Below are positions 1,327-39,100 of a stretch of 64,000 nucleotides of DNA, one piece after another. The notes beneath the pieces were generated by a model. The model did not search any database. It had not been told where the DNA came from and saw only the letters and a program-made list of their open reading frames with translations. Origin of the DNA: Elusimicrobiota bacterium (GTDB lineage: Bacteria; Elusimicrobiota; Elusimicrobia; F11); assembly GCA_022072025.1 (NCBI GenBank), contig JAJVIP010000006.1, forward strand, positions 1-64,000. The letters run 5' to 3'. Within the stretch, counting starts at the first letter, position 1, and the number at the start of each line of letters is the position of its first letter. Both the position numbers and the translations under genes were made by a program.

Positions 1327-4300
1327 CTATGCGGCGGTTGCGATGGCCTTCAGAATGGCCAAGACCTGCTCTTGCTGAGGCCCCAAATGAAGGAACTCTG
1401 GAATCAACTCATCAAGGTCAATGGCACGATGATGATGATCTTGAATCACCCAACCAGAATAAATGACAGAAGCGGGGCTTGCCTTTGAGTTGAACAAAGA
1501 ATTGAACTCTTTAAGGGACATGTTGGGTCTGCCCCCAGGGTCCCGCTTGGGACAGATTTCCGGGTCATAGGACCTCATTTCAACCCTAAGCAATTTGGCC
1601 AGTCTCTGATATTCCGCCTCTTGACCTTTCGGAACAAGGAATTGAACCTCTTTGCCAAGTCCAAGCCACCATTTGGCCAGTAAAATTCTTGTATCCGTGG
1701 GTTTAGACCCAAAAAAGGCGAACAATTGCGTCTTCGAATCATCCACAGAGGTATCCGAGTAGACAGCACTCAATATAAGCCTCAATGCGCTTTGAATGTT
1801 GGGGGTCCATTCAAATTCTTTCCCTTCCGTTTTACCAAGGCGGCGAAGTTCCTCTCCAACCAACGTTTGAAATTGCTCCGATTGGAACAAATGCCTCCAT
1901 GATAAGGGCTCCGTTTGAGACAACTTCGATATTTGGGCGTCCAAACCCAGCGAACTGGTTTGCATCAGAATTTTCAGCGCTTCATCCCAATCGTCTCTGG
2001 AAAGTGCAAGCGTCAATTGGGCTATGTTTGTCGCCTCCCCCCGAACGCGGTCCGAAGTGAGGTCTCTGTTTGACTGATGCTCCCTCTCCATTGGGGCCTG
2101 GTCTGCCTGATTTGATATTCGGTATATAAACCAAGCATGAACAACCAATAGAACCATCACAGCCGCAAAAATTGATACTGGCGCGATCATGACGTTGAGT
2201 GCCTCCCATAGGGTATCAATAACCAGTGAAATGCTCATCAGCGCACTCGTCATGTCGTTATTTGAATGATCGATCGGGGCAAAATTAATTACATTAAAAA
2301 TTTCAACAGGAGAAAAAAGGCCAAACAAAAAAGGTATCCCATTATTTGGAGGAGATGCCGCTTTGGGGGGTGTATCATTCAATGCTTTTTTAACCAATTG
2401 CGCTATGGTTTTTCCTGAACGGCGCTGTATCTGAGAAAGAGAAATAAATTCTCCATGGTGGGTTTGCAGATAAGGAGTATCAGCCCATGGTCTTTGCGCC
2501 ATAGCGGCATCAATAATGATCCTCAAAATTCTGGCAGGCCCTTTGTGTTGAACGTTATCTTTGCCTTTTTCATCCCTGACGGTGAGCACATGCGGAACAT
2601 GGCTCACAAGATCTTGGCGGCCGAGAAAATAAGAAAGTGAAAATTGCCCGCTGGAGACCTCGGGATGAAAGAGAAAGGTATCAAAACCAGAATCCCCTAA
2701 TTTTAAGATAACCCCGCGCTGCCTGGGCCAGAGCCCCATTTCAGCTCGCACCACCACCGATTTGTCCAGCCGAGTGACAATCAACATCGCATCACCGAAG
2801 ACAATCTGATAATCGTTGAAACCTGTCTGTCCTGTGAGCTGTTCTTCAATTTTCTTAGCAGCTTGACTCATATCAGGACACTTTTTCACATCATGTTCGC
2901 TGATGGAGATCAGTGCTCCTTTGTGATGAAACCGCAGAGTCTGATCGATTCCATATTGGGGCCCTCGCTCGTCTAGTATTCTCTTCAATTCAACGATAGA
3001 TTTGGCACCCTCGACTTCGTTGAGCAATTCCTTCCAATGCGAAATGAAGTCAGAAGAAACCCCAATCAAGTTACTCCGTCCCTCCAAATAAACTTTGATC
3101 AGGGCTTTGCTGATAATTAGACCATCCTCTTCAGAAATAACTCGATCAAGGTAACCACGCGTTGGGGGTAACATCAACCCATGATCAGAAAAAGCAACCC
3201 TTGTTCCATTTCCGGCAGTTTGAAGAACAAGTCGTTTCAATTGATCTTGTCTTCCAACAGACCGCATTTCCGTAAAAAGAGGATTGATCAATCTGTCCAT
3301 GAGTCCGCCCGTTTTTCCCAAGGGTGTTAATGAACTGCCGCTGACAATGAGAATTTGAGGAAGATTTTCCTGAGGATAATCCTCATACATGAGCCGCGCC
3401 ACTTGCCAAAGATTTTCAGGAAGAATAGGAGAGATTCCGTCTTCAGGTGCGTGAACACCGTCAAAATCAGTGGCCAATCCAGCGATTTCGACAGGTTGGT
3501 GTGGCTGAAAGTTTTCTGGAATAAGGAGATCCACATATTCTGGAGGGGCCTGTGGCGGAGCAATGTTGATTGTCATCACGCGCTCCCGAGGCACATCGGC
3601 TAAATCAATCAAACGTCCAACTGATCTATAGGATTGTTGATCTGCAACCGGATTATTAAACCGCTCTGGAAGAAGAGCTTCCTCTTTAAGAAATTCATAA
3701 AGAGCCATCGTCGCTTGTAAATAATACATCAAGGCGTCTCTGCCAGATGAATCCTGGTTAAAACGGTGGATGATATCGCTGGCATAATCAATCGCTTCAC
3801 CCAATCGCACATGACCAAACCAATCCGAAGTCACGCCTTCAAAAAGAGTTTGCACCGCTTGATTCGCTTTTAGCCGTTCTGGAAATTTCCGCCATGCCTC
3901 AAGATATTTTCTAACGCCCGGGGTGTTCTCAAAATGGAAATTGAAATGAAATGTTCCCAAATGACGTTCTGCATTCAATTGATAGTGTCTTTCCCTTACC
4001 AGCTCAAGAAAAAAAGAGTGGCAAATTTTTGCCAAATCGTACTCCACTGAGGTTTGACTGGGAGAACTGTGGTGAGAAAATTGGCCTCGGAGATCGGAGA
4101 GAACCAACCTTCCATCGGGCAGTCGAAGTACATTACGAAGAGGAAGATCTCCGTGTCCGTATCGACAATAATGACTGGGGCCAAATTTTTTCTGCAAATC
4201 CTGCAAATGATCGTAAAAAACATCCAGCAACACCGGAAGATTGGGATACCTCTGACCGTTAATCAAAATGTGATCATCCCTCATCAGATCTTGATAAAAG

Positions 4301-7300
4301 TAAGAAGCATCTATGTAATCAAGATTCCCCAAATGAAACCGTCTTCCCAATATCAACCTGCCATATACCTGTTCAGAACGGCTTGCCAACATTCTTATCC
4401 GATGCCGAACCCGCGCGGCGTAATTGCGATACAACTCATCCGGAAAGGGCTCCATATGATGGCGGTAATGGGTTTTAGCGATGAGGCCGACAATCCCATC
4501 AATCTCAGTCATCATATCGTCTGCGGTTAATTCATCACGGAAAAAATATTCCGTGATGTCTTCCGCTCCTTCCAAATATTCCAAGACCAGGTAGGCTTCA
4601 TCCCCACTGGGCCTTTCATAATAATCCAAGCTTCGGTAATACAGCGGTATGGCATCCGGCGGATAAGACTCCTGCAATTCCATCAAACGGCGATACTGAG
4701 CTCTAAGCCAAGGAACTCCATTCCCACTGATACCTGTCCAATTTGAATATTTGACAATCACCTTTTGACCTGAAGAGTTGAGAGCCAGAAACACTTGGGC
4801 AGAACTTCCCCCACGTGAAAAGGATTTCAATAGGGTGTAGCCGTTCTGAGTTAAAATGACCGGGAAAGTCGAATTTTCACCTTCTTGGGTCTGGTTTTTT
4901 TGTTTTCGTACCCGATTCGCTCCAAACGCAGCCCCGTACAGAAGTGGATGGTTCATCGCAGCAACCAGTTCCTGATCGGATCCAATATGAACCCAGTGTG
5001 CTTCTTCGCCTGCCTCAGCTATCGCAAAATGACCCGAGGACGCATCGAGCAGATCCTTTGCGGATCGCCAAATTTTGTTCCAAACTGCTGAAGCGACAGG
5101 TTTATCGCGTGCGGCAACGCCCCTCAGCGAGTTGTCATATCCATCTCTCGCAACATTTATCCACTCACGAGCTGTCATTAAGGCGGGCTCAAAAAGGGCC
5201 CGCAGCGTTAGATCTGCATTCTCTCCTCGCCACTGGTCCCACCTGTAATTATCAATCAATGTTTGTTCCGTGTGGGCGGGGAAAAAAGTGGGCCCCATGT
5301 TAACCGGATAGACCCGTCCAAAGGCGAATGATTTTTTAAAAAATTCTGGCCCCCTTTTCTCAATAAATCCCTCAACATAAAGGTGACCGTTCAATTCCCG
5401 TGTTTCCGTGACGACTCCGGAATTCGGAATATTGGGGTCTTCTGATGGCAAGTGATTGCACAGGATATTGATACGAGACGAATCAAAACGCGGCGGTTCA
5501 GACAGAGAGAATACGTTATCGGAGTTAATGACCCACCGTCCTCGAACCGTGCAATCGTACAGCTGGAGCATTTGCATGAGTTGCACATAGAGAAAGGGCA
5601 CTCCAAGTTTTCTGGTCGGCATCAACAATTTCCCAAAAGGAGCGAACAATTTGTTCCGACTGGCCAAACCAGAGGCCGGTATCATTAATCTGAACATTTG
5701 TTCTTGCCTTTGTTGCGATATCCCCAATTCCTCCAACAATTGTCGAGACTCAAGGATGGCATCGGCTACGGCCACCAACACACCCGGCCTAATCTCTTTG
5801 CAAGGGATGACCAAAAACAGGGGATGCCCGGGCTGATTCGCCAGTGTTCGAGTTTGGGAGTCAGGCATTTCGTCGGTTCGCAGAATAAGAGAGTCGCTGG
5901 GTATATAGCGTCCTCGAGCCTCGGTTAAGGCATTCACGATCTGGTTGGCTGTAACCTCCGGAACCAAGAGTTCCACGACATCGGGGTAATTTCCCAAAGG
6001 ATTTTGGAGCGCTCGCGCCAATTGTTGATACTGTCGAATAATTCCTTCCCATTTCCCATGCGAAATATCACCGTCGATCAAATCCTGTTTGTTGAGAACG
6101 GTTAAAGGGGGATCATCTCTTAAAGAAAACTCCACCGCTTCTGCGGATATGGCACGGGGTTCTTCGGACAACACCAAGACCGCTCGTTGCTGTTCATTTT
6201 TTTCAATAATAGATATGCGCTGGACTTTCAAACCCTCGCCATCTATAAGGGACGTTCCGATCCCGATAGGGCCCGTTTTTTTTAATGCCTCCCCTAGAGA
6301 GAGTATTGAAAGTTGTTTCTTTAACAGATCAGAGGGCCTAACCAAGATACCTTCCACAGGATAGGATTGACCCTCATGTTCCACTCGAAGATGATTTAAG
6401 AATGGCGCCAAATTCTTATCCAATGCCACAAGGTCGCTATCAATATTTTCGGACATCTCTTCATATTCAAGTTCCGCCATACCCCCCGGCGCCTTGTATC
6501 CAAAATCATATTCAAAGTTAAAAAAGGGAATATTATTGCGGTTAAGCCATAGTTTTTTATCACTCTCATGTTCGCTCTTGATCCAAGGGACAAATTCAAT
6601 GGCTCCCAAGCGAGAATTCCGACTGAGATGACGTTCAAGTTCATTCTGAGAAATCCGGCCTGAAACTATATAGGCCCCGGTGGCGGGCTCCCGTCTCAGC
6701 ACGCTTAAATAGTGAACGGGAACGTCACGGAATTCCAATTGGCCAGGAATTCGTGCATGAATAAAGACTGACAATTTAGCCAGTTCCACAACGCGGCTGA
6801 GGGGCACCTCGGGCCCTGACAAATGAACCTGAAATTCAAACTCTATTTCATATTTATCCGCGCGGCGGATATTAAACTGATTGGCATGGACCAGCGAAAA
6901 AATTCTCTGTTGAGGCAATTCTTCATCGGGTTTCTTAATCCCCCCCATTCCTACCACACCGTCCCACTTGAACGACAAAATATTTAGGATCCCATGCGAA
7001 ACCAACGCCACGGGAAGAGCGGCAAGAATGCTCCAAGCTCCAACAAATTGAAAGAGGTAAAAAATCACGGCAAGATAAAGCAGGCGGGGAATGAGCGCAA
7101 TGGTGAAAAACAGCTGGAGGCGTAGACGGGCTTCAACCGGCAAACGGTTGGGATCTTTTTCAGTCGGTGGTCCCCGAACAGTCAACTTACCTCTGTTCCA
7201 CACCATCATTTGATTCCAATGATCAAACATGACATGGCCGATCGATAAAAGAGCACCCCAAACAAACCCAAATTCGACCGGCCATCCAAGAGAATTGTTC

Positions 7301-10300
7301 AACATGAGTCCGATCAACCATCCAACCAAACCACCTGTGACCGCGCTGTAAATGAACTCTTCAGCTCCACCCAATGCGGAAATCTCCCTGTCCGTGAGAT
7401 GCGCAAAAAACCGATGGATAATGGGAATGAAGTGGTTCATAAACCAGGGAGAAAGTCCCACTGAACCAGATGATGTGGAAGAATCAGATTCTGCTGTTTC
7501 CTTACCCAACGAGACCCGCCTTATCGCAGTTTCACCCACCTGACTCTTTTTCGTGAACAATAGCGCGTGTGCAACAGGCCGTTGTTGATGGCCCCAGGCT
7601 GATCCGGTTCTTGCTTTGGCCCACCAAACGGACAACTCTTCACCTCTTGAGGCGCCTTGAAGTCCCCCACTTAAGGGGCCCAAGATGGCATTTTGGACCC
7701 CCAGGCTTAGGAGTACTCCCACAAGTTGGCGAACAGTGGGCTCAACGCCAGATGTCCGCGTAGATTCCTCTTTTCCAGGTGAATCCCACGTTGATGCAAG
7801 TTGTATCGCTATAAGTTGTCCATCCTGGTTATATCCCCACGCGGCCATAGCCACGGGTTCATCGAGAGTTTTCCACCAGATGTCGTTTCCGTTAATGGCA
7901 GGTTTTCTATCAAGAGAAATTCTTTGATCTGGGTCCGCATTCGAATCAAGGACACTTTTCCCATCCTTGATAAGGAGCATACCACCGAATCCATTTGCAG
8001 GTGGAGTATCGCCTTGATCAGGTTCCAACTTGCCTTCAAAAAGTCTGACCTTAACAACACGCGGCTGGTCCAAATCCAAAACCCAGAAGATTCCGTTGGG
8101 GAGTTCGTATCTTTCTTGTTCAATGCCCGGCGCTCCTTCTGAGCGTAAGATTAAGTTCCCATCCTGAAATGCAATTGCATTGGGCTTTAAGAAATCGGGC
8201 TGGGAACCGCTCAGTGCGACAATCGCCCGAGATTCATCTGCTCTATTAATATGTCCTTGGATAGGAAATCCAGGAATCGGTGTTCTGGGAAGATCTGATC
8301 TCCACGCGAGAACTTGTTCGTTAATACTTTGACTAATTGCCACTTGATGCGGATCGATGATGAACAGCTTTCCCGAAATCTTGGCGGATGTCCCTATGTG
8401 AAAGCCTTTGTATTTAAGACCAGGGATCAAGTCTAATTCCTCTGAAATGACCGGATCGGTATACAACTCTTTGACTTTCAGCAAAATACTGGAGGAGTGA
8501 GAATTGCGGTTTGCAATTCCATCCGCCACATCCTTGCCTTCGGCAAACAACAAAACATCCTTATAGCCGCGCTTTTTTAAACGAGCTTGCACAACGGCAA
8601 GAGAGCCACCGACAAATCGCGATTCTCCTGGAATTACAACGATATCTGTCTCTCCGTTCTCCTTGATGGCGATCAAACTCAAAGGGTTAAGACCAGGAAG
8701 CAATTTGATGAACACTGATTGCTCGTTAATCGAGTATTGGCCAGCGCGATCTATCAAATTTTCCTGTGCCACTTTGGTGTATCCAAATTCCTCAAATAAA
8801 TCAGGGAGGTTTTCTGTTCCAGCAAGCTCCAGAAGGCTCAGGGCGATTGTTTCCCCGCGCAGCGCCCTAACCAATTTATCTCGATCACTTAACAATTCAG
8901 ATGTTCCAAAATAAAGAAATTGCCCATTGCTCATAACGATGCGCGGCAAAGTGAAGAAATGGTTCATGTCCGCTACCTGGTCAACCAAAGAATCCAATGG
9001 AACAGAGTCATTTTCGAGAATCAGCGGCTGTCCGGAGTAAATAATAGACGTAGGATGTGTTAAGGGAACGAATCGAACGAATGATTTTTCACTCTTGTCA
9101 CGAATGAGGATTTTCCCACCCATAAATACATGAGGATGGTTGTTATCGTCAGAGGGAATAAATTCTTCGAAACGAAATTCTTCAATTGAACGGTGGCCCT
9201 CTTCCCATTGGACAAGCGCATAATAATGTCTTCTGGAAGAATAATAGACTCGATCACCGATGACATTTTTTTGAAGCTCCTCTGCATTTGCATAAAGACG
9301 TCCATCGGCATATAACACAGTCCCATCGTTCAAACCAAGGTTGGAATTGATTAACGGATTACCCAAAATCTGCACATTCGGGTTCTGTTGTTTAAATCTA
9401 TTCACCAAAGTGGCCACTGGTTCTTGAATGACTCTAAAACTATCGGTTGGTTTTCCCGCAATCGTCAATGACCGATGGACCCGATCAAAATAAAATTGAT
9501 TGATAGGTTGGTTGGATACGACCGCTAACAATTTATTGGCCGACTCCACTGGGCTGATTGTGTAGGCAGTTTCTTCTTGTTCTTTGAAACGGCCATCATG
9601 GCGAGGTTGGTCGGCGTTTTCAGCGATTAGGTAAGCGGCTCCCAAGAGCCCGTTAAACTTTAGTGCGTGCTCAGATTCGGCAAAGATACTCACTTCAACG
9701 CCTTCATCTGCGAGCAGTTGTCGCATCTTTTCGAAAACAATTTTTCCAGCGTTTCCATTGTAGAACTTTCCTCCAAGGACAAATTGTCTGATTCCATATT
9801 CCGCTTTGAGTTGCCTCGCCAATGCAGCCGTCCATACACCGACTTCTTCAAAAACAGCTTTCGCTTCTTGCCTTTTTATATCGGTCTCAGGATTTGCGTC
9901 ATCACTCTCAAGCCAGGCTTCCAGAGTGGTTTGGATATCTTTTTCCTGTGCAATCCCATACTTTGACACCAATCCATTTCTCGTCGCTATCATGTTAATT
10001 CCACGTACCGCCGTGTACTGTCCTGCTTTTCCTTTCGTTCCAACTTTGGGATGAACCAATGCGTCCGGACTCATGTCAACAATGACGCGAGTGAGTTCAT
10101 TGACGCCGTCAATAATCTTGCCGTGATTATCAACGACTCCGGGAGTCAAGAAACTTCCATGCCGCAAAAGAGCAAAGTCTCTCTTATCCGCCAATCCAGA
10201 TGTCGCCAGCGCCTGAAGATCACCATCATTAATACACCACGCTGGTTTCCCACCAAATTCGTTCGATAAATAATCGTCGAGTCTTGACACACTCTCTAAG

Positions 10301-13300
10301 AGGTCTCCAGAGACATTTTGAAAAACACCGGCTTGCTGAGGCGAAGCTCTTCCCTGAGGAGAAAAAACAGCCATTCCCACAACGATTCCGTCAATCTCCT
10401 CCGGCTTCAGCTTCGCTCTTTGGAGAGCCTTGCGGCCTTCCTCCGTTACTTGTCGAAGGAATTGGTCCACCGAATGAGAAGAGTTCTCAGGAGCCTTGGT
10501 CTGAATAGCTATTGGATTTCCAACAAACTTGGCTGGTTCATTTCCGGTTCGATGAACAACGGCCGTTTTGATTTCTGTGACCCCTACATTAATGACCAGA
10601 AGGTTTCCCGTATTTCTAGAAATGCGAGGTTGCGTATCCAGGCTCGACTCAATGGCTTGATACCGAGATTTAACTTCCAACAGATCCGTTTCGTTGTCTA
10701 CGATGCTGAAAGAATCCATTCCGTAGTTCGATTTAATAATCATCTGAACAGACCCCGGATTACGAAGGCGCACATAATCCGTTTCAACTGTATCGTGGAT
10801 TTCCTTAAAGAGTTTGGTTTGTTCGGTGTCGATCCAGACCGCGTAGGCGCCCTGCATCCAGAGCACATTGTGTATGGTCACAGCAACATATCGGATCAAA
10901 ACGCTTTCCGCTAAGCGCGAGAGCTTCTTGGGATAAGATATCGTCCGTTCCCAAATACGTCCATTCGCCGTTGCAAAATGGAGCGTAATTGATGAAAACC
11001 GTTGCGGACGTTGTTTGGATAAACGCCTGAATTGCTCGAAAGTCCCCATCCATTCATAGAAGAATTTTTCTTGATCGAGCGATTCAAGTCGATGAAGAAG
11101 ATTAATCCGAGGGTAATCATAAATGGCATGTGAAATGAGGAGAGCCAGAATGATGATGGCGCTGATGAATGGATGAGTCGGAATTAACACCGCACTTCCA
11201 AGGTATCCAACCATTAAGATGGTCAAAAGGCCGGTCGTTCGACCGTCTCGATGCGGATGATCAATGAAAATGAAATGGATCGCGTTGATGGCGGAAAGGA
11301 TCCATAGAACTGCCTGCGCACTGGGCCCAAACGAGCCGACGTTGGCAATCAAAAATGGAACAAACAATCGGCACCATTCCCATACCGCAGTGAACACGGT
11401 TTCGTTTGAAATGGAAGGGGATAAAATGTGGGAACCTATGTATTTCCATAGAAGAGAAGTTGAATCTGCTTGGGCAAGTTTTCCAGAGGCAAGGTTTTTT
11501 GGTTGCTCTATCTGATTGCCGTTCATGGATCCAGTATTGGAACGTTTATAAATTCCATTATTTTGAATGTACTCTCTTACTGTTTTTGGCAAGAGAGTCC
11601 AGCTGCTTGAAGTTCGAATATCTGAAGATCGCAAGGTTAAAATTGAGCGGTCCCGTAGTACGTCTAATTGATAAGAGGAATCAGTTTCATTGGCAGCCAA
11701 TACGTTAGAGGGATCTTGAAATACAATCATCCCAATATCAACGTTGGGTGTAGAAATTTTCTGCTCTCTTAAGAGGACATCAAAATTCGATTTCCATTTT
11801 TCATAAGTGTCAGGCCCTGCAACCAGATAAAACAGAACAGTCCCAGGTAATACATTATGGGGATCTTGATTCAATGAAAGAACTCTCAAAGCATTTTTTG
11901 TTCCAAAATCATTTGGATATTTCAAACTCATTTGCGACGTTCTAATAAGGGGAGCGAATATTGCTGTAAATTTTTCGCACATAGCATGACGCTCAAAGGA
12001 GGAGGTTTTGTTCAACTTCCAAACCGTTCCATCTGGGCCGGGGGAATGTTCCCCAACAGGAGCCAAGTAGGCCATATAGGTTATCCGTTCTCCTTGCCTT
12101 TGCTCAGATGCGTAAACCAAAGCATCTAATAGAAGAGAGATATGATTAAAACCGGGCGGATCAAAAGTACCCGGCAAAGCCAGCATCACAAGTTTGTTCG
12201 TTTTAGGAGGGAGCTGAGATGCCTGTTTACCTTCGGATAGGAGGAAACGATCATCAAGGACGACTTGTCCTGTCATAATTCGTGCCCATAGAGTTTTTAG
12301 GTTGTGATCGAACTTTGCCTTTATCCCAGAAAGGATTTGGATTTCTTCTTGATTGGCATGAGTGGCCATTTCTACAAGCGCTTCATTGTATTTGGAAAAT
12401 ACATCTTCTATGAATTTTAATGATTCCCTATCGGGCTCGAGTCCAGTGGGTTGTAGATCACCATCTTTCCATAAATAATTGCAGCCATTTTTATCTATGA
12501 ATCGTATCTCTATATCCTGCGTGTTTTTCGCTTCTCTTACGTCAAAAGTCAGAATATTTTTGAATGTATCAACCGATTTGGAGGCAATATCACGAATGAT
12601 CATTTCGACGCTTTCATCATTGTTGATATGAAGAATCACCTGATAACGACCTAAGGAACTATAAAAACAAATTCGTTTAACGGGAAAAGGATTCACGGGA
12701 TTTCCTGATAAAAATTTATCAATGGCCTTCTTCGATTCACTAAGGAATAAGGGGTCAAAGGCGTAAAATTGACCGGTCTTCGTAAATTCCTCAGGATTTT
12801 CTTGAATTCTCCTCACATATTCTTCCCAATCAACCCATTCGGCATTCGCCACCTTATTACTTATCGGGGTAATATCTCTAAATCGAATTTCAACCAAATA
12901 AAGTGAAATGAACTCACGATTATAAAGACTTTCATTCTCACGATATTTTTTAACAACACGAATCCATCCTTCTTTTCCAATTTGAATTGATCTCAAAATA
13001 TCAGAGAAGTGAAGCCCCAGTTCCTCTCTTAATCCTCTTTTTAAAGCCTCAGCGGGATTTCCTCGATCTTTCCCTATTAATTGTGTGGCGAGGCTTTGAT
13101 CGTATTTGCCTTTAGCGATATCAACAACATCAGACCTTTTTTGAATTAGAACCTTAACTTTTCCTTGGGAATCTTTAGAAACAATATAGGCTTGGATTCC
13201 TTTATGCCAATCACCATTCTCATGTACACGTGCTCTTTCCTCAAATCCAATGTGTTGGCGGACCGCAAAATCATAGATAGGAATCTGTTGCTCATTTTCT

Positions 13301-16300
13301 GGGGATATTTTTAAGGCGATTTCCTTTTGGACCAATGTTCTCAGAGAAGAATTTTTAATTTCCCATGGAAGCGAATAAAACGATTTTTGGGGCCTGAACA
13401 ACTCAAGTCGACGAAGAAGATTAATCCGAGGGTAATCATAAATGGCATGTGAAATGAGGAGAGCCAGAATGATGATGGCGCTGATGAATGGATGAGTCGG
13501 AATTAACACCGCACTTCCAAGGTATCCAACCATTAAGATGATCAAAAGGCCGGTCGTTCGACCGTCTCGATGCGGATGATCAATGAAAATGAAGTGGATC
13601 GCGTTGATGGCGGAAAGGATCCATAGAACTGCCTGCGCACTGGGCCCAAACGAGCCGACGTTGGCAATCAAAAATGGAACAAACAATCGGCACCATTCCC
13701 AGACCGCCGTGAACACGGTTTCGTTTGAAATGGTGGGAGATAAAACTCTCGAACCGATCTGCTTCCACAGAAAGGTTGTTGATTTAGCCTGAGCAGGGGG
13801 CTGGAATTCATCATATATCACTCCATCGCCTTTCCCTTCTCCGTTACCATTGGTGAAATATGCATGTCTCATTGCATCTTCACGTTCCGCCAATGGGATG
13901 AATTCTCGACTCCTAAAATCAGCGGCAGCTCTGCGGACACGCTGTTCTAAACGGCTCAATGAGTCAACGCTTCGATCATCAGCCAAACTGTTGAGATAAG
14001 ATTTCCAGTCGTCCGGCTCACTGAGACGAACTCCGAGAAGTGGCTCACTTAGGAACTGCAGCAAATAACGCTTCGCGATCTCATAATAGGGACTGTCGGA
14101 TTTTCCCTGCTTATAGATCAACGTAAACAGATCATCAAAACCTTGAGCATTCCCAACACTTAAGGATGCCAATTTTCCCTCTATTTCTAGGAATGCTATG
14201 ACGGCGACCCTTAAATCTGCATCCCCTAGCCTTTCGGCCCATCGAAAGAAATCATGAAGAGCCGCGTTCGGAGTAAGCATCGATTCTAAAAGCGGAAGAA
14301 GCGCTCGATACTCATTTGGTTGTAAACTGCTTAAATCCTTACCGGTTACTTCAAGAATTAATCGCGTCAGATCATAATGCGCCGTCTCCTCAGCAAGCGA
14401 AGCCTGCATGATCTGGGAAACTGTCGTTGCTGTCGCCTCGCGCGCCGCCATCGCACCCCACACCCACAGTGCAAATCCAAGAGGTTCATCTTCGAAATTG
14501 CCAAACGCAGAGGGATTTTTGCTTTTGCGAATCCACTCACCACGGATCTGATCCAAGATTTGGCGGACCGATTCCGTTCCAGCAATATCAACAGTAATGT
14601 GCCAAGGACTGGCTTCAGCATAGCCGCGGCCTCCAAAAGGGTATTGGAGGTAAAATACCTCGGCAATGTAACCAGCAGGGGTCTGCTCGATAGAGGCTTC
14701 TCGCACTATACCCGGATGAGCAATGTCAGTCATAAAAAGCCCTGCTGGCTCACAAATTTGGCGTTTTACTTCCGCGAGCAAGGTCCGAGTGTTTGGATGC
14801 TCTTCGATGAAGCTGGAATCAAATTCAGGGAAACGCGGCCGAACCAACTTATCGACAAATTCACGGAGTGATCGTTTATCCAAAAGCCCCATTGATTGGA
14901 ACGTGTAGAGTGTTTGAAATTCTGGCCCGTCCAACGACATAAGCCATTGATAGACATCATTTGGATCTGGAGTTGAAACAGCCGTTCGAGATCGATTTTC
15001 CCGTGCGCCCGAAATATTCGACCGGGCAGCCTGCCATAACCGACGGATGGCCTCCTCTTCCTCTGCTGATTTGAATTTATGGCGTCCACGTCGCAAGTCG
15101 ACCGCTTCATGTCGAAGGAGAGTTAATAGATCATTGTAGCCGCCGCGATAACCATGTGCCGCCGCGACGGTATTGAGGTGAAGGAAAATCGTGCCCTCAT
15201 ATATATTCCCTGATTTTTTCCCGGCTCCGGTATGAGCTAAGACCGCGCCATTTAAGAGTGGATTGGCACTTTCGGGTTTCTGCTCCTGTATAAGAAACAC
15301 AAGACGTCCGAAACCAATATCAGGCGCAGATCCTTGAACCGTCAAATCGAAAGCGAGCGACTGCGCCGTAAGTAAAGCGCGCTTAAGACACTGTCTTTGC
15401 TCAAAGTTCTTCAGGTAGTCAAGCAGCGTACGCTTTGCAGCATTTTTATCAGCTAAGGCCGCATCAGCTAAGAGCCTCTCCGCAATCGTCTCGTAAGGTC
15501 CAGCGAATAACTCCACAACATTAAGTGAGCGTAGGCGTTGAATCGATATAGCTACAGCTTTACCTTGCTCAATCGAGCTTGCTATCGATGGATTTGTGAC
15601 GGTTGATTCGAATTTTTTAGAGTTGTTATCGGCAACGTTCTTCGTTTGCCCTTCCTGATTACCGTTCCCATTCTCGGTCTCTTCTTCTCCAGTCTCACCC
15701 TCTCCTCGAAGGCCAGGAATCATAGCTGTCAGTTTTTCAACGAAACGTTGTGCAGGCGTAAGGTGTTTCCACTGGTTGGCGAGATGCCAGCCGGAGAACA
15801 GAACCGACTGCGCTCCCCAAATAATCCAGACGACCCATGTCATTTGTGAAGAACTCGTTGAAAGCAATGGAATCAACCAGGCGAACAGAAGTTCTCCTTG
15901 CGAGAATAGAAGTGCCCAGCTCCACCGCTGAATAGGAGAAACCCGCCAAAGGCTCGGCAGCTCACCCGGAATAACAGAGAACTCTATTGGGGGCTGAAGA
16001 AATGGCGGATTAACTTTCCTCAACCCTGAACGGATGGATTCCGAAACAGACCAAAAGCGAACCATCAACCCGGTCCAGCTGAAATTGTTGGTGGAAGGAT
16101 TAATGAAGAGGCGTTCCCCTTGGAAGAGTTTGTCGAGTGGCGTCTTGGCTTGGGCGAATAAAGAAAGATAACCAGCGCCATCTTTATCTTCGATCTTCGT
16201 CATCTTGGGCGAGAGGACGACGTACGATGTTTTCTTTCTACGCAACGCCGCCGCGATATCTGGCGTGTGAAAGCCGCCTGCAACCAGCACACGCGCCTTA

Positions 16301-17796
16301 TTGGTTCTTGCCGCAAGTAAGCGGGTAACCATCTTCTGGCTTCGCTTATCTGCTTCTCTGTAGAAGGATTCAAATGCAAGCAGTGATGGAATATTCTGGA
16401 GGGAGTCCTGACGATCGAGGAGTGCGCCCAATTCCTGCCACATCTCTGACAATGATCTATTCAATTGTTGATAACGAGTCCACTCTGTCGGAGAAAGTGA
16501 GAATTGCACCATTTTCTCGGTGAGAGAGAACTGATCGCAAAGACTGACCAACCGGTTCTCTTCTGGAGATTGGATGAGCTTCTGGAAGGTCCGTTTCTCT
16601 AGGCGTTCCAATTCTTCAAAGAGCATTTCTCCCTGCAAAGCATCGGCCAATAACACATAACGGATATATGAATTGAATTCCGGTGTCTTGCTTAGATCAA
16701 TTCTCCTTTGATGGCAAAGGTTCTGAAGCGCTGCGTAAAAATCTCCAAATTCAATTTGGCCACTTCTCAAGGCCAACCCACGGGATACCAAGTCGCCGGC
16801 TTCCTCAGTTGTTAAATTCGACGTAAGCCGTTCGAGAACCCTTTGTTTTTCACGTTCGACCAGAGGGAAGTCCAAGGTTTTTTCCAATCGATACGCCTCC
16901 AAGAATTGACTGAGAACCGGCCCAATCTCTTGGTTCCGATTGGCCAATGCCTGAACATAAGGACCAAGTCCCAAATTCCCTTTATGATAGGAGCTTTGAA
17001 GATTGTCGAGCTGGGACAATTCGAAGGAAAAATAAACTTTCTTGGCCTGAGAAAGTCTTTCTTGAAAACTGCGAAGATGCTGATTTACCGTTTCCTGAAT
17101 CTTTCGTGAATCAAGATAGGCTTTTACATTGAGGTGATAACTGTCTTTGTCATCCACCCCGATGATAAGAGGTGGCGCCAAACGGGACATGAGACCGGCA
17201 TAGGACGGAGCGGCCAGCAGACTTGCTTGTAAAAAGTCGTCGGCAACTTTCTGTTGAATTGCTTTGTCAGGGAATGTTCGAAGAAATGAAAAATCTATCG
17301 GCTGAAAAGCCCCTTCCACACCAATGACTCCAGCTCGATTGGTTTCTATTAAAGAAGTGAGAATTGAAGCGATATTGCTCTGCGCTTCTGGGTTCATGTG
17401 GATATCCTGAATGATCAAAACAGGGGAGTTTGTTTTTTCTTTTGAATCATATAGTTCCCGAATGGAACCATAGGAGAAGGAAATAGAATCTAGGATGGAC
17501 TGTAGATCATTGGATATTCTTTTATCTTTCCACCTGGATGGAGCCCGTGTGGAGTAAGAGAGCGGGGGCCTGCGAGCAACAGGAAATGAAGAGACAAGAG
17601 AATCGAGGTTTTTAGCAGGGACTTGACTGAACGAAGGAGGTAAGGAGGCATAGCTTTTCGCCTCCTCGTTTGCCTTCTCCGAAAGTCGGCGGCGTTCAGT
17701 CCAAAAATTTATTTCGGATGAATAGATGAAGCTGCACTGCGTAAAGAACAATGAAAAAGAAAGAAAAGCGGAAAAATATCTTTGCCAGTTTTTCAT
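1327..17796 (-). CDS. Giant 5,489-residue secreted/membrane multidomain protein (giant A)
   Basis: One uninterrupted frame. Order seen: N-terminal signal or anchor helix (residues 8-27); shared giant-protein module 125-550 (QDIH 130-133, GVEG about 160, VAGGFH about 505), which resembles the Tiki/TraB/ChaN hydrolase fold; membrane segment 615-690; HEAVDLRRG about 895; CPBP-like membrane module 1354-1465; Nudix domain about 1520-1650 (LREELGL box, IDI-like); NadD-like nucleotidyltransferase about 1868-2085 (GTFDPP, late S-S-x-I-R); second CPBP-like copy 2127-2238; ROK-like sugar-kinase fold about 2395-2720; phosphodiester-glycosidase (NAGPA)-like about 2750-3390; third CPBP-like module 3455-3600; weak nucleotidyltransferase-like stretch about 3900-4200; APH/kinase-like about 4322-4620 (HGDLPLRNV); HAD-like 4770-5100 (DFDG, VSGSS, GDSGFD); final membrane helices 5150-5225. 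Several active sites look altered. The membrane segments imply that soluble domains alternate between compartments. Overall function unknown; probably envelope glycan metabolism (inference). Confidence 0.85.
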   Translation of the reverse strand: MKNWQRYFSAFLSFSLFFTQCSFIYSSEINFWTERRRLSEKANEEAKSYASLPPSFSQVPAKNLDSLVSSFPVARRPPLSYSTRAPSRWKDKRISNDLQSILDSISFSYGSIRELYDSKEKTNSPVLIIQDIHMNPEAQSNIASILTSLIETNRAGVIGVEGAFQPIDFSFLRTFPDKAIQQKVADDFLQASLLAAPSYAGLMSRLAPPLIIGVDDKDSYHLNVKAYLDSRKIQETVNQHLRSFQERLSQAKKVYFSFELSQLDNLQSSYHKGNLGLGPYVQALANRNQEIGPVLSQFLEAYRLEKTLDFPLVEREKQRVLERLTSNLTTEEAGDLVSRGLALRSGQIEFGDFYAALQNLCHQRRIDLSKTPEFNSYIRYVLLADALQGEMLFEELERLEKRTFQKLIQSPEENRLVSLCDQFSLTEKMVQFSLSPTEWTRYQQLNRSLSEMWQELGALLDRQDSLQNIPSLLAFESFYREADKRSQKMVTRLLAARTNKARVLVAGGFHTPDIAAALRRKKTSYVVLSPKMTKIEDKDGAGYLSLFAQAKTPLDKLFQGERLFINPSTNNFSWTGLMVRFWSVSESIRSGLRKVNPPFLQPPIEFSVIPGELPSLWRVSPIQRWSWALLFSQGELLFAWLIPLLSTSSSQMTWVVWIIWGAQSVLFSGWHLANQWKHLTPAQRFVEKLTAMIPGLRGEGETGEEETENGNGNQEGQTKNVADNNSKKFESTVTNPSIASSIEQGKAVAISIQRLRSLNVVELFAGPYETIAERLLADAALADKNAAKRTLLDYLKNFEQRQCLKRALLTAQSLAFDLTVQGSAPDIGFGRLVFLIQEQKPESANPLLNGAVLAHTGAGKKSGNIYEGTIFLHLNTVAAAHGYRGGYNDLLTLLRHEAVDLRRGRHKFKSAEEEEAIRRLWQAARSNISGARENRSRTAVSTPDPNDVYQWLMSLDGPEFQTLYTFQSMGLLDKRSLREFVDKLVRPRFPEFDSSFIEEHPNTRTLLAEVKRQICEPAGLFMTDIAHPGIVREASIEQTPAGYIAEVFYLQYPFGGRGYAEASPWHITVDIAGTESVRQILDQIRGEWIRKSKNPSAFGNFEDEPLGFALWVWGAMAAREATATTVSQIMQASLAEETAHYDLTRLILEVTGKDLSSLQPNEYRALLPLLESMLTPNAALHDFFRWAERLGDADLRVAVIAFLEIEGKLASLSVGNAQGFDDLFTLIYKQGKSDSPYYEIAKRYLLQFLSEPLLGVRLSEPDDWKSYLNSLADDRSVDSLSRLEQRVRRAAADFRSREFIPLAEREDAMRHAYFTNGNGEGKGDGVIYDEFQPPAQAKSTTFLWKQIGSRVLSPTISNETVFTAVWEWCRLFVPFLIANVGSFGPSAQAVLWILSAINAIHFIFIDHPHRDGRTTGLLIILMVGYLGSAVLIPTHPFISAIIILALLISHAIYDYPRINLLRRLELFRPQKSFYSLPWEIKNSSLRTLVQKEIALKISPENEQQIPIYDFAVRQHIGFEERARVHENGDWHKGIQAYIVSKDSQGKVKVLIQKRSDVVDIAKGKYDQSLATQLIGKDRGNPAEALKRGLREELGLHFSDILRSIQIGKEGWIRVVKKYRENESLYNREFISLYLVEIRFRDITPISNKVANAEWVDWEEYVRRIQENPEEFTKTGQFYAFDPLFLSESKKAIDKFLSGNPVNPFPVKRICFYSSLGRYQVILHINNDESVEMIIRDIASKSVDTFKNILTFDVREAKNTQDIEIRFIDKNGCNYLWKDGDLQPTGLEPDRESLKFIEDVFSKYNEALVEMATHANQEEIQILSGIKAKFDHNLKTLWARIMTGQVVLDDRFLLSEGKQASQLPPKTNKLVMLALPGTFDPPGFNHISLLLDALVYASEQRQGERITYMAYLAPVGEHSPGPDGTVWKLNKTSSFERHAMCEKFTAIFAPLIRTSQMSLKYPNDFGTKNALRVLSLNQDPHNVLPGTVLFYLVAGPDTYEKWKSNFDVLLREQKISTPNVDIGMIVFQDPSNVLAANETDSSYQLDVLRDRSILTLRSSDIRTSSSWTLLPKTVREYIQNNGIYKRSNTGSMNGNQIEQPKNLASGKLAQADSTSLLWKYIGSHILSPSISNETVFTAVWEWCRLFVPFLIANVGSFGPSAQAVLWILSAINAIHFIFIDHPHRDGRTTGLLTILMVGYLGSAVLIPTHPFISAIIILALLISHAIYDYPRINLLHRLESLDQEKFFYEWMGTFEQFRRLSKQRPQRFSSITLHFATANGRIWERTISYPKKLSRLAESVLIRYVAVTIHNVLWMQGAYAVWIDTEQTKLFKEIHDTVETDYVRLRNPGSVQMIIKSNYGMDSFSIVDNETDLLEVKSRYQAIESSLDTQPRISRNTGNLLVINVGVTEIKTAVVHRTGNEPAKFVGNPIAIQTKAPENSSHSVDQFLRQVTEEGRKALQRAKLKPEEIDGIVVGMAVFSPQGRASPQQAGVFQNVSGDLLESVSRLDDYLSNEFGGKPAWCINDGDLQALATSGLADKRDFALLRHGSFLTPGVVDNHGKIIDGVNELTRVIVDMSPDALVHPKVGTKGKAGQYTAVRGINMIATRNGLVSKYGIAQEKDIQTTLEAWLESDDANPETDIKRQEAKAVFEEVGVWTAALARQLKAEYGIRQFVLGGKFYNGNAGKIVFEKMRQLLADEGVEVSIFAESEHALKFNGLLGAAYLIAENADQPRHDGRFKEQEETAYTISPVESANKLLAVVSNQPINQFYFDRVHRSLTIAGKPTDSFRVIQEPVATLVNRFKQQNPNVQILGNPLINSNLGLNDGTVLYADGRLYANAEELQKNVIGDRVYYSSRRHYYALVQWEEGHRSIEEFRFEEFIPSDDNNHPHVFMGGKILIRDKSEKSFVRFVPLTHPTSIIYSGQPLILENDSVPLDSLVDQVADMNHFFTLPRIVMSNGQFLYFGTSELLSDRDKLVRALRGETIALSLLELAGTENLPDLFEEFGYTKVAQENLIDRAGQYSINEQSVFIKLLPGLNPLSLIAIKENGETDIVVIPGESRFVGGSLAVVQARLKKRGYKDVLLFAEGKDVADGIANRNSHSSSILLKVKELYTDPVISEELDLIPGLKYKGFHIGTSAKISGKLFIIDPHQVAISQSINEQVLAWRSDLPRTPIPGFPIQGHINRADESRAIVALSGSQPDFLKPNAIAFQDGNLILRSEGAPGIEQERYELPNGIFWVLDLDQPRVVKVRLFEGKLEPDQGDTPPANGFGGMLLIKDGKSVLDSNADPDQRISLDRKPAINGNDIWWKTLDEPVAMAAWGYNQDGQLIAIQLASTWDSPGKEESTRTSGVEPTVRQLVGVLLSLGVQNAILGPLSGGLQGASRGEELSVWWAKARTGSAWGHQQRPVAHALLFTKKSQVGETAIRRVSLGKETAESDSSTSSGSVGLSPWFMNHFIPIIHRFFAHLTDREISALGGAEEFIYSAVTGGLVGWLIGLMLNNSLGWPVEFGFVWGALLSIGHVMFDHWNQMMVWNRGKLTVRGPPTEKDPNRLPVEARLRLQLFFTIALIPRLLYLAVIFYLFQFVGAWSILAALPVALVSHGILNILSFKWDGVVGMGGIKKPDEELPQQRIFSLVHANQFNIRRADKYEIEFEFQVHLSGPEVPLSRVVELAKLSVFIHARIPGQLEFRDVPVHYLSVLRREPATGAYIVSGRISQNELERHLSRNSRLGAIEFVPWIKSEHESDKKLWLNRNNIPFFNFEYDFGYKAPGGMAELEYEEMSENIDSDLVALDKNLAPFLNHLRVEHEGQSYPVEGILVRPSDLLKKQLSILSLGEALKKTGPIGIGTSLIDGEGLKVQRISIIEKNEQQRAVLVLSEEPRAISAEAVEFSLRDDPPLTVLNKQDLIDGDISHGKWEGIIRQYQQLARALQNPLGNYPDVVELLVPEVTANQIVNALTEARGRYIPSDSLILRTDEMPDSQTRTLANQPGHPLFLVIPCKEIRPGVLVAVADAILESRQLLEELGISQQRQEQMFRLMIPASGLASRNKLFAPFGKLLMPTRKLGVPFLYVQLMQMLQLYDCTVRGRWVINSDNVFSLSEPPRFDSSRINILCNHLPSEDPNIPNSGVVTETRELNGHLYVEGFIEKRGPEFFKKSFAFGRVYPVNMGPTFFPAHTEQTLIDNYRWDQWRGENADLTLRALFEPALMTAREWINVARDGYDNSLRGVAARDKPVASAVWNKIWRSAKDLLDASSGHFAIAEAGEEAHWVHIGSDQELVAAMNHPLLYGAAFGANRVRKQKNQTQEGENSTFPVILTQNGYTLLKSFSRGGSSAQVFLALNSSGQKVIVKYSNWTGISGNGVPWLRAQYRRLMELQESYPPDAIPLYYRSLDYYERPSGDEAYLVLEYLEGAEDITEYFFRDELTADDMMTEIDGIVGLIAKTHYRHHMEPFPDELYRNYAARVRHRIRMLASRSEQVYGRLILGRRFHLGNLDYIDASYFYQDLMRDDHILINGQRYPNLPVLLDVFYDHLQDLQKKFGPSHYCRYGHGDLPLRNVLRLPDGRLVLSDLRGQFSHHSSPSQTSVEYDLAKICHSFFLELVRERHYQLNAERHLGTFHFNFHFENTPGVRKYLEAWRKFPERLKANQAVQTLFEGVTSDWFGHVRLGEAIDYASDIIHRFNQDSSGRDALMYYLQATMALYEFLKEEALLPERFNNPVADQQSYRSVGRLIDLADVPRERVMTINIAPPQAPPEYVDLLIPENFQPHQPVEIAGLATDFDGVHAPEDGISPILPENLWQVARLMYEDYPQENLPQILIVSGSSLTPLGKTGGLMDRLINPLFTEMRSVGRQDQLKRLVLQTAGNGTRVAFSDHGLMLPPTRGYLDRVISEEDGLIISKALIKVYLEGRSNLIGVSSDFISHWKELLNEVEGAKSIVELKRILDERGPQYGIDQTLRFHHKGALISISEHDVKKCPDMSQAAKKIEEQLTGQTGFNDYQIVFGDAMLIVTRLDKSVVVRAEMGLWPRQRGVILKLGDSGFDTFLFHPEVSSGQFSLSYFLGRQDLVSHVPHVLTVRDEKGKDNVQHKGPARILRIIIDAAMAQRPWADTPYLQTHHGEFISLSQIQRRSGKTIAQLVKKALNDTPPKAASPPNNGIPFLFGLFSPVEIFNVINFAPIDHSNNDMTSALMSISLVIDTLWEALNVMIAPVSIFAAVMVLLVVHAWFIYRISNQADQAPMEREHQSNRDLTSDRVRGEATNIAQLTLALSRDDWDEALKILMQTSSLGLDAQISKLSQTEPLSWRHLFQSEQFQTLVGEELRRLGKTEGKEFEWTPNIQSALRLILSAVYSDTSVDDSKTQLFAFFGSKPTDTRILLAKWWLGLGKEVQFLVPKGQEAEYQRLAKLLRVEMRSYDPEICPKRDPGGRPNMSLKEFNSLFNSKASPASVIYSGWVIQDHHHRAIDLDELIPEFLHLGPQQEQVLAILKAIATAA
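11082..11415 (-). repeat. Internal duplication, copy 1 (CPBP-like membrane module)
   Basis: About 334 nt nearly identical to 13401-13734: six mismatches by my reading, no gaps. The offset is 2,319 nt, exactly 773 codons, so both copies are read in the same frame of the giant A gene. Each encodes a hydrophobic segment with AINAIHF and LLISHAIYDYP, resembling the CPBP FxxxH and HxxxN motifs. Flanking protein sequence is similar but diverged, so this is a recent duplication or gene conversion. Confidence 0.95.
13401..13734 (-). repeat. Internal duplication, copy 2 (CPBP-like membrane module)
   Basis: Partner of the copy at 11082-11415. The Nudix and NadD-like domains of giant A lie between the two copies, so the repeat unit at protein level is membrane module plus nucleotide domain. 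Confidence 0.95.
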
Positions 17797-32599: not shown

Positions 32600-32650
32600 A
32601 ATTCTTTGGTTGCGATGGAGTTGCGTGTGGAATGAACTATTGAAAAAAAA

Positions 32651-32830
32651 TAATAGCGCGGGGCGTCCCAACCAATCCATGCTTGCGCATGGTTGCGACA
32701 GCCCCGATTTGGGACTGTCCCGGCATAAATTGGAAAGAAATAATAGCGCGGGGCGTCCCAACCAATCCATGCTTGCGCATGGTTGCGACAGCCCCGACTT
32801 GGGACTGTCCCGGCATAAATTGAAAAGAAA
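32651..32830. repeat. Two 90-bp tandem repeats capped by a tRNA-Met 3' end sequence
   Basis: Units at 32651-32740 and 32741-32830 differ at two positions by my reading. Each begins TAATAGCGCGGGGCG, and the same 15 bases at 32831-32845 form the 3' end of tRNA-Met (minus strand). Each unit holds nested stems: CCATGC/GCATGG at 32677-32692, GTCCCAA/TTGGGAC, GGGGC/GCCCC and GACAG/CTGTC. It is noncoding as far as I can see and would be transcribed as a tRNA trailer. Confidence 0.9.
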
Positions 32831-34227: not shown

Positions 34228-36129
34228 CTAAGAAACAATCGAGACAGGCATAATTTCACAAAGATTTTGCCGATCAGGAATTAATTTAATGTCGGAATCT
34301 GATCGGGAAAGAAAAGTAATTAATTCTTTTTGAAAAATCATGGCCTCATCTGTCCTGTTGTTTTTTTGACACAAATCAATAAATAACTCCAAAAATTGTT
34401 TTTTCAATAAAACCAATCCTGCTTCTTCAACTATTTGCAATGCTTGTCTGGGCAAACGCATATCAAAAAATCCACTTATTTCATGCTTTACAATAGATTC
34501 GAGGACCATAAATTTTGCTTTTAACTTTCTTGAGGTTGAATTTCGGATATATTTTTCCAACTCTTGCAAACGAGACAAGATGAGTTTGGAGTTTTTCATG
34601 GCACGATAAGCCTGCAATAGGCCCATATTGGCTTCAATCCATGAAATCCGATTGTCATGAAATTCTGAAGATTGAACCACCTCAATGAAAACCTGAGATG
34701 CCTCTTCTGGCTTTCCCTTTAACATGAACAACTCAGCCAAACACAATCTCAATATGGGGAGAAGTCTATTGACTCCAAGCTTTTCAATAATTTCTCTTGC
34801 TTGATTAATATTCTTCTCAGCATTCGCCAATTCTTTTTTAACCAAGGCAAGCCGGGATTTGAATATCAAAGCATCCGCGGTGATGTCGAACGCTTTGTAT
34901 TTTTCACTTAGTTGCAAAGATGATTCAATGGCTAAATCTGCTGAACGAACATACCCCAAACTTAAAAAAACGTTTGCCTGGCATTTTTCCACTTCTGACT
35001 TCAATGGAATAATTTCAAGCCGATCGGCCAATCCTTTGGCTTTTATAAAACACTCGCGGGCATGAGATAAATCAGCCAATAGATAGTAAATCTCTCCCAA
35101 TTCACATTCAGCCCAGCCTGTTCCTTTTTGACTGGCAATGTGATTGTAAAGGTTCAAGGATTGTCTTACCAATTGCCAAGCTTGGGTTAAACGACCTTTG
35201 TCCCTGAGGATACGAGCATTCTGGAAGGTACCCCAAGCAAGGCCATCGTTGTTTCTTAGCCGAGTAAAAAACTGAAGGGCCTTCTTATTTAATGCCTCTG
35301 CCTCTATAAGTTTTCCCTGGGCCCATTTTATCCCCGCAATATTTAAAACAGCCCATCCCGCTCTATCAGTCAAGTTTAATGATTCAAAAATCTTCCAAGC
35401 TTTCCGAAGATATTGCTCAGATTCTTTAAACTCCGTTTGCAAACGGGCCACTGTCCCCAAACAAAGAATGGCCCAAGCCAATCCCTGCTTTATTTTAAGG
35501 TCTGCGAAATTTTTTTCAGCCTCCTGATATAAACTCTTGGCTTCTTGATATTGCCCCATTTCTTGGTACAAATTCCCGAGGTTGCAGGCATTCCAAGCCA
35601 ATGAAAGAGTGTTTTTTTCTGAAATGAATATGGCGCGGGCTTTTTTGGCATAGGAAAGACTTTCGGATCGATTGAATTGATTTAAATGAATAATAGACAA
35701 GTTGTCATAGGCGGAGGCCATTTCCATCTTATGCTGACCACTTTCAAATATTTGAAGGGCCTTAAAAACATAATCCAAAGCAAGGGCATTCCTGTCTATC
35801 TCACGGTTAATACAGGAAAGTTCGTTATAGACAATCCCCAACCCAATTTCATTTGCCCCTTGTGAGAAAATGGCTCCCGCTTTTTCAAGGTTATGATAGG
35901 CATCGGAATATTTGCGCTGCCCCTTCAGTATCATTGCGATACCCAGAAAAGCCCATGCCGCTTCTTCTCTATATCCCGACTGTTTTCGCTTGCCAATCTT
36001 TTTGCGGATTTTTTGTATAGCCACTTGTGCAAATGCAGACGACATTGATTCAACAGATTCCCTAAAACCTTGCCCCAAATGCTGGTCAACCAAACCTTTT
36101 AAAGGTGGCAACTCGGTTTTATTATGCAT
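34228..36129 (-). CDS. Tetratricopeptide-repeat protein
   Basis: A 633-residue soluble protein without a signal peptide, made almost wholly of helical repeats. At least ten TPR-like units of 34-40 residues run from about 45 to 480 (for example AWAFLGIAMILKGQRKYSDA, ACNLGNLYQEMGQYQEA, CLGTVARLQTEFKESEQ), the longer spacing resembling the LGN/PINS and Rapsyn types. It is a scaffold, with no catalytic motif seen. The ATG overlaps the stop of the 1,710-residue giant by 8 nt, so it is coupled to that gene and is a good candidate cytoplasmic partner of the giant-protein system (inference). Confidence 0.85.
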   Translation of the reverse strand: MHNKTELPPLKGLVDQHLGQGFRESVESMSSAFAQVAIQKIRKKIGKRKQSGYREEAAWAFLGIAMILKGQRKYSDAYHNLEKAGAIFSQGANEIGLGIVYNELSCINREIDRNALALDYVFKALQIFESGQHKMEMASAYDNLSIIHLNQFNRSESLSYAKKARAIFISEKNTLSLAWNACNLGNLYQEMGQYQEAKSLYQEAEKNFADLKIKQGLAWAILCLGTVARLQTEFKESEQYLRKAWKIFESLNLTDRAGWAVLNIAGIKWAQGKLIEAEALNKKALQFFTRLRNNDGLAWGTFQNARILRDKGRLTQAWQLVRQSLNLYNHIASQKGTGWAECELGEIYYLLADLSHARECFIKAKGLADRLEIIPLKSEVEKCQANVFLSLGYVRSADLAIESSLQLSEKYKAFDITADALIFKSRLALVKKELANAEKNINQAREIIEKLGVNRLLPILRLCLAELFMLKGKPEEASQVFIEVVQSSEFHDNRISWIEANMGLLQAYRAMKNSKLILSRLQELEKYIRNSTSRKLKAKFMVLESIVKHEISGFFDMRLPRQALQIVEEAGLVLLKKQFLELFIDLCQKNNRTDEAMIFQKELITFLSRSDSDIKLIPDRQNLCEIMPVSIVS

Positions 36130-39100
36130 CGCTCATGGTTCTCCGTATCGCCCAGATTTTCCCAGCGCTCTTGATTAATTTTCGGTTTCCTGACAATTCG
36201 TTATTATCGCTTTCCATCCTATGGGTAAATTGATTTACAATAAAATTGTAAAAAGTAACTAAGCTCGAAATGGCTTTTTTAATAATCATCATTGGACCTT
36301 GAGTGGCAGGCTTCATTTCCGGAATATCAAACTGGCTTCGATCATTTGTTGGATAATCGGAAACTCCCTTATTCTCAACATCTAATCTTCCAATGGGCCC
36401 GTTCAATTCTTGCATAAATTTATTTTCTACAGTTAATGTGTTGTGTCTTAATGTTATTGATAAATGCTTCAGACCTGGAGCGATGACAAGATTCGCACTG
36501 GAATCTATATCAAACGATGAGGTTTCAGACCCTTCAAGAATTTGATGGTCGGCTCGCTCCTGCCCTTGAAGCACATATTTCTTCACCCTGGCTGCATCTT
36601 TTTGATCGATGATTAACACTCCAATAGCTGAATATCCGATCACCAATCCTTCAACTCCCCCTTTCAATTTTACTTTCATTCCATGATCCGCATAAATCAC
36701 ATTATTCTTCGATACTTCATCGACCTCAATATCAGTATTGATCCCAAGCAAAATATTACTGCGGCCCCTTCCCCATCTTGAAGAATCTCCGTTCATTAAA
36801 CGAATAATGGCGGACCAAGAACCAATGTCGTGAAAGTAGATATCTGTTGGAATAACAGCCATTCGAACAGTGGAAATCTTATGAACATTATCGTTAAGAC
36901 GCATTGAAATAAGATAATCAAATATAGGATAAATTCTCTCTCCTTGAACAAACGGATGAGGAACCATTTCTGACATTTCCCCATATAAATCCTGGGCCAG
37001 TATGTTGTTAGATTGAGCCAAAGCGGAAACCATCTTTTCATAAATATCAAATAATCTCGGTTCGCAATGTTTAACGGCATTCTCTATGGTTTCCAACCTT
37101 CCCACAACAACACCCATGTTCCAATACCATTGACCTTTTTGAGCCTGCATTTCCAACGCTTCATCTTGAGGGGGTTTTTCAATAAAAGTCTTTGAATAGA
37201 ACCCCTCTCCTAAAGGCTCATCTTGATTTATTTGGATTGAACCAAATCGCATCCAGTCAGACACCTGAGAATTATTTGGAGGAATTTGGCCTAACAAAAC
37301 AATGGCATTCGGATCCAACTGGGTGGCTTGAACAGCTTGGTGCAAGAATTTCCTGTACCGTTGGGGCGTGCGGACAATGGTGTCTCCTGGAAGGATAATA
37401 AGTGTTTTGTCACGAACATCTTGTTGTCTTGATTTTATATTGGCCATGGCCCATAGAATTCCATTTAAATCACCCGAAGCTGAGGTGGGGATGGTGAGAA
37501 TATTGTCACCTGGAAGACTTCCGAGTGTTTGAGTGTTGACCGTGGTTTCAATTTCTTTTGATGGAACAACAAAAACATCCTCCCCCTTGAGGAAGGAAGA
37601 AAAACCCCCTTCCTCAAAACGATGAATGAGTCGTTCAACGGTGGCAATCAAACTATTGGCAAATTCTCCAACAGGCAATAAAAGTTTAAGGGCCGGAAAA
37701 GCGCCCAAGCTCTTACCCCCTGCCAAAATAACCGCGTTGATGTTATTTAAAGGGGTGGATCCCTCATTTAAGTCATCAACACTCTCTAGCGGCTCAACAT
37801 TAGAGCGCCTATGGGGTGAAACCAACTGTCCATAGTGATATAGCTCAACAAAACCATCTTGAGACAAATTTTGTGCGCGGGCACGATTCAATTCTTCTAT
37901 TAAAACATCATATCCTCTTTGATTATTTTCTTTGCGTTTTCTTGTTTGTTGAGATTCGTAGAAATTAATACCAACCTTTTTCTCCTTCATTTCGTCATGG
38001 CCAAAAACCAAATGAATATTCGGATCGACACCCTCCGTATCGAAACTAACGTGTCTTTCGGGAACCTCGTAAAAAAGGATAGGCCCGGTGTAATTGAATT
38101 CAGCAAGAAGACGGAAAAGGGTATCCACCGCTAATTTATGATGAGGGTGGCAAACATGCTTTGTATTTTGACCTGGTGCCTTTTTGGAAAACGGGTATGG
38201 AATAACAAAGAGTGCGCCCCTTTTCACCCAATCTCTGACGTATCTTGTTAGTTTCCTCAAATCAGATTCAGAAAGGGAGAAAAAATCATTATTTAAAGGA
38301 TTAAATTTCCCCTGGTCATCAAGAATAACAGGCTCACTTGCCTCTGAGGAAATTTCCATGTCCATGTATTTAATCCCACGATGGGCAGCGTGCGAATTAC
38401 TCTCAAACCTTCTGGTAGTCTTCTTAAATTCTTTTTTTGTTTCAGAACGCTCCATTACCCCATATCTTATCTCGATGAATTCATCACTTACTCCCATCGC
38501 ATCATCGAACAAGGAAACCAGGGTGGTCGAAACATTTGGGTCCTGAGCAAGACCATATAAAAGTCCTCCTGCACCAACAGCCCCATCATCAGGATGAGGC
38601 TCAATAAACACAATATCCTTGGGATTACCAAGGAATGACAAAAAGGCTCGAATATTCTTTGGAGTAAATTGATTCTTTCTGACATCCGGCACAAATGAAA
38701 CTCCGCCCTCAAAAACCAATTCGGCGGGCTGATGAATCGTAAAATATTTTTGGCGCAAATCTGAAAAATCATCGTCGTGAATGTTGACATTGTTCTGCAA
38801 AATTTCAGGTTCCATTATAAACTCAGGCGTAAGATCAGAATAAATTCTTGTCTTTAAATAAAAATTTCTCAAAACTTTTATTCTTACCAACTCATTACCG
38901 TTCAAATTCGGCACTATATTTAATGCAATCTGATGCCCAGCGGAATTCAATTTCTTCCCCATCTTCTTTCTTCGATCGGCGGGCAAACAACCCAGCAGCA
39001 AGTGGTGAAATTTGTGTTCATCAAAGCCCGTCATTAATATTTGAAGAATATTTTCCTGAACCAAAAAATCTAATTGAGAAAAATAATTTAGTTTATGGAG

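Follow-up and report, generated by a model that had tools for sequence, protein, structure and literature searches.

A near-identical pair of hydrophobic modules brackets a segment of deviant base composition in a giant gene of an Elusimicrobiota bacterium

We analysed a stretch of 64,000 nt (the window), which forms part of contig C6 of an Elusimicrobiota bacterium. The best RNase PH matches come mostly from Elusimicrobia and Endomicrobium MAGs (67% for the nearest), and by this single marker Elusimicrobiota is the probable phylum. An ORF of 5489 codons with a signal-like N-terminus lies on the minus strand at 1327..17796 and is termed giant A. With 5489 aa it is longer than the 5000 aa above which ORFs of Elusimicrobiota and Omnitrophota are counted as giant. 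Because the signal-like N-terminus is combined with hydrophobic modules, the protein most likely has a general role as a membrane-anchored multi-domain protein. A conserved N-terminal region of ~440-590 aa (27-41% identity) is common to several giants: those at window positions 1327-17796, 36122-41254 and 41576-51280, and those at C6:51363-73946 and C5:55842-61913. In the 3234-aa giant, a Pfam search gave a sub-threshold ChaN-like match. The giant at 41576-51280 includes a starch/glycogen synthase-like region (Glyco_transf_5, 89.5 bits; Glycos_transf_1, 57.1 bits).

Giant A contains two copies of a 334-nt sequence, at 11082-11415 and 13401-13734. The first-pass annotation had reported about six differences between them; near-identity was confirmed, and the exact count is 7 mismatches in 334 nt. 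The copies are 2319 nt apart, which is a whole number of codons (773), and both are in frame within the minus-strand ORF 1327-17796, as had been stated before. Most of the repeat belongs to a core with 5 mismatches in 327 nt, found at 13405..13731 (copy A, minus strand, codons 1356-1464) and 11086..11412 (copy B, minus strand, codons 2129-2237). The GC3 of both cores is host-like (0.505 in copy A and 0.476 in copy B). No other 300-bp direct repeat occurs in the 64,000-nt window. Used as a query against the 3.64-Mb genome, the repeat matched these two places only, making it the sole near-identical pair. An assembly error behind the pair is unlikely. With a core longer than typical short reads and an assembly of 43 contigs, one might suspect that a copy is spurious or that a real repeat led to a chimeric join. 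Against this, a spurious copy would not show 7 differences and distinct flanks on both sides, and the frame is open throughout. We regard such an artefact as very improbable.

Comparable pairs were sought by aligning sequences against themselves with blastn (E 1e-8). The whole of C6, 40 kb of C5 and parts of the contigs of five relatives were covered, and no second pair of similar length and identity was present there inside a giant frame. The nearest other pair inside a giant was a 144-bp tandem (84%) at C6 69271-69558, in the giant C6:51363-73946. That giant (window 51360-64000) has 7528 codons and carries an old internal duplication of ~820 codons with 46% aa identity, in which 40-column bins revealed no conversion-like patch. 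Many diverged internal repeats occur in a 9977-codon frame at C6:178957-208887. At window positions 32639-32818, two adjoining 90-bp copies are 97% identical, and a related stretch (83%) is present on C5.

The core is hydrophobic and has several hydropathy peaks. The earlier description as a membrane module agrees with hydropathy, and the name is used here in that sense only; a Pfam search with the module matched no family. An AlphaFold2 model of the module was poor (mean pLDDT 56.6), and a PADLOC search gave no match at E 0.01. A CPBP (Rce1-like) intramembrane protease (PF02517) was considered for the module and rejected, as Pfam gave no match and a motif resemblance seen by eye is only a lead; the one sub-threshold PF02517 match in the genome falls within another frame, of 5007 aa. 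At C5:57714-58118, a 2024-aa frame contains a remote relative of the module (~25% identical), which formed the third row of a three-row module alignment. Seven other hydrophobic segments of the same genome were compared with this alignment as single sequences. Giant A supplied three of them and the 3234-aa giant two, and one each came from the window part (4212 codons) of the next giant and from the 5007-aa frame on C2. In profile comparison, neither these seven nor the module of the relatives G010 and G011 described below matched convincingly. The best of the seven, a short segment of giant A itself, reached an hhalign probability of 8.6% and was also a weak phmmer match.

Outside the cores, similarity falls off abruptly. 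On the N side, the flank of copy A (13732..13794, minus strand, codons 1335-1355) is identical to that of copy B (11413..11475, minus strand, codons 2108-2128) at 14 of 21 aa. These 21 codons, aligned in register, had a BLOSUM62 score of 74; none of 5338 other offsets exceeded 24. The C-side flanks (13372..13404, codons 1465-1475, in copy A; 11053..11085, codons 2238-2248, in copy B; both on the minus strand) share 4 of 11 aa, a weaker similarity that 2 of 5348 offsets equalled in score. The neighbouring sequence had been described as loosely similar at the protein level, and this applies to ~21 codons on the N side and ~11 on the C side; beyond these limits, no similarity was seen between the surroundings of the copies.

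A jump in divergence is seen at synonymous positions. In the N-side flank, 10 of 13 synonymous codons differed and were thus saturated, compared with 3 of 103 in the core (Fisher p=9e-10). NG86 estimates of dS were 0.04 for the core and 2.4 for the N-side flank, the latter being near saturation and based on 21 codons. When the mismatch positions were shuffled 20,000 times over the 423-nt homologous stretch, no 327-nt window held fewer than 19 mismatches; the observed number was 5. Selection on the nucleotide sequence itself, e.g. on an RNA element, might in principle keep the cores alike without recent exchange. The core lies in minus-strand coding sequence and no point in support of such selection was found, and it would have to account for 100 of 103 synonymous codons being identical over more than 100 codons up to a sharp edge. 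We give this explanation almost no weight.

A near-identical paralogous segment with homologous, diverged flanks is the pattern expected of gene conversion, and it was found on the N side; on the C side, the flank is weak. Since the N-side flank is homologous yet synonymously saturated, both modules appear to have been old and separate before their cores were homogenised. This disfavours a plain recent duplication, in which a module-sized piece would have been inserted beside a short related sequence. Near-identity of the core and in-frame spacing would suit such an event, but the diverged N-side flank is clearly homologous and in register, with a weaker counterpart on the C side, showing that both module ends predate it. 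We consider plain duplication improbable. The first-pass annotation had left gene conversion and recent duplication side by side; the step in synonymous divergence at the core edges supports conversion well, and duplication alone lacks support, since the flanks reveal modules that were already old.

The sequence between the copies differs in composition from the remainder of giant A. This segment, X (11476..13398, minus strand, codons 1467-2107, 641 codons), has a GC content of 39% and a GC3 of about 0.31-0.33; outside X, the GC3 of the gene is about 0.44-0.46. Its GC3 of 0.31 is below that of all 111 sampled ORFs (lowest value 0.363), a reference consisting of ORFs of at least 200 codons from 274 kb of the same genome only. 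Among 205 windows of 300 codons, the two with the lowest GC3 were both in X. A scan for two change points that was blind to the repeat positions placed them at codons 1448/1470 and 2121 (2-lnL support intervals 1421-1528 and 2083-2152), which coincide with the inner edges of the two copies. The LLR was 20.7, and the maximum in 300 block shuffles was 12.1. A low GC3 like that of X is not found in the C-side flank of copy A (7/11, host-like); the compositions of the other flanks are uninformative.

X encodes a NUDIX domain at 12790..13191 (minus strand; PF00293, 24.6 bits at a cut-off of 21.1). An NMNAT (NadD)-like domain is indicated at 11548..12171 (minus strand) by a TIGR00482 match with E 2e-4, whose 21.4 bits are far under the cut-off of 112. 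Searches of viral contigs with X and of plasmids with X and the modules gave no match. When X and the following region were compared with PDB sequences, no match above chance was obtained.

Because the compositional edges coincide with the inner edges of the copies, we infer that recombination at the modules brought X into the gene. X is probably an acquired soluble cassette between recombining modules. For the combined reading of conversion and acquisition, the host-like GC3 of both cores was counted in favour, and the shortness of the homologous flanks (21 and 11 codons) and the composition of the C-side flank of copy A against. Gene conversion between old modules could also have taken place around a long-resident native segment that is AT-rich by chance, and the evidence for conversion does not require X to be foreign. 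Composition does vary among native genes, a 1710-aa giant having 300-codon windows down to a GC3 of 0.33. On the other hand, the GC3 of X lies under that of every sampled gene, and the composition step meets the inner edges of the copies on both sides. We consider a native origin of X rather unlikely.

Searches for orthologues, made for the module, X and the wider gene, covered the genus (1 genome), the family and order (4 genomes) and the class (235 genomes) and found none; outside the genome itself, they returned only scattered domain similarity. A contig scan of genomes with the module gave no relative either. An orthologous giant could be compared between the congeneric genomes G010 (L120) and G011 (L119), in which three aligned stretches were 86.4%, 86.3% and 80.6% identical at the aa level. 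At a first site, 1834 nt in G011 correspond to 16 nt in G010, a net difference of 1818 nt or 606 codons. At a second site, G011 has an extra 948 nt (316 codons) and G010 has none; by eye, this segment contains a kinase-like stretch. Both extra segments adjoin hydrophobic stretches and resemble their surroundings in composition. Flanking direct repeats of at least 10 bases were absent from the junctions except for one 10-base match.

As the G010 and G011 orthologues differ by two segments, internal segment gain or loss does take place in such giants. These cases do not show a repeat-mediated route. The more general claim that giants grow by swapping internal modules is supported indirectly by a composition outlier bounded by the two copies in giant A and by the two internal differences between G010 and G011. 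It needs to be qualified in that the G010/G011 changes concern mainly soluble sequence beside hydrophobic stretches, and not the membrane module itself.

Taken together, we propose with moderate confidence that old modules were homogenised by recent gene conversion and that X was acquired by recombination at these modules. Two membrane modules of common, old descent would thus flank a soluble segment with NUDIX-like and NMNAT-like parts. In a recent gene conversion, homologous recombination would have overwritten the 327-bp core of one module with that of the other; the core would have lost its synonymous differences, and the short flanks would have kept theirs. For X, the most likely origin is a donor with another base composition, the modules being the sites of recombination. 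Conversion and integration may have been one event, with gap repair during integration, or two. Recombination between the copies could delete X in frame: joining the host halves, with X and one core removed, gives an open frame of 4716 aa. By extension, the homogenised modules could act as a pair of recombination sites for the in-frame gain and loss of soluble enzyme cassettes, and the population could be mixed for versions with and without X; this is a speculative extension that we think rather doubtful.

To our knowledge, segment gain and loss with maintenance of the frame is poorly documented in bacterial genes of at least 10 kb. A conversion tract at the edges of an acquired-looking segment, together with segment differences between congeneric genomes, makes module-guided recombination a testable route. 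It also offers a clue to how poorly understood giant proteins may be rebuilt.

Giant genes are reported to be common in Omnitrophota and Elusimicrobia, and according to the available parts of the reports they encode transmembrane helices and have no known function (PMC12057145, PMC11573180, PMC10066038). Giant A resembles the giant ORFs described there in being thousands of residues long, poorly conserved and sparse in annotated domains, and its hydropathy peaks may correspond to the multiple transmembrane helices predicted in them; conversion tracts or internal segment differences are not described in those parts (PMC12057145, PMC11573180, PMC10066038). The Giant1-5 surface proteins of Apilactobacillus kunkeei are likewise products of very large bacterial genes shaped by recombination, but have a tandem-repeat architecture, and according to the authors of that study the giant genes show no sign of recent conversion among themselves (PMC12863079). 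Interlocus gene conversion between duplicated genes (reviewed in PMC3924818) shares with our locus a near-identical paralogous tract with diverged flanking homology. In contrast to that system, both segments of giant A lie in one giant frame and bracket a composition outlier. What is new here is the low-GC3 block between the copies, with its edges at their inner edges.
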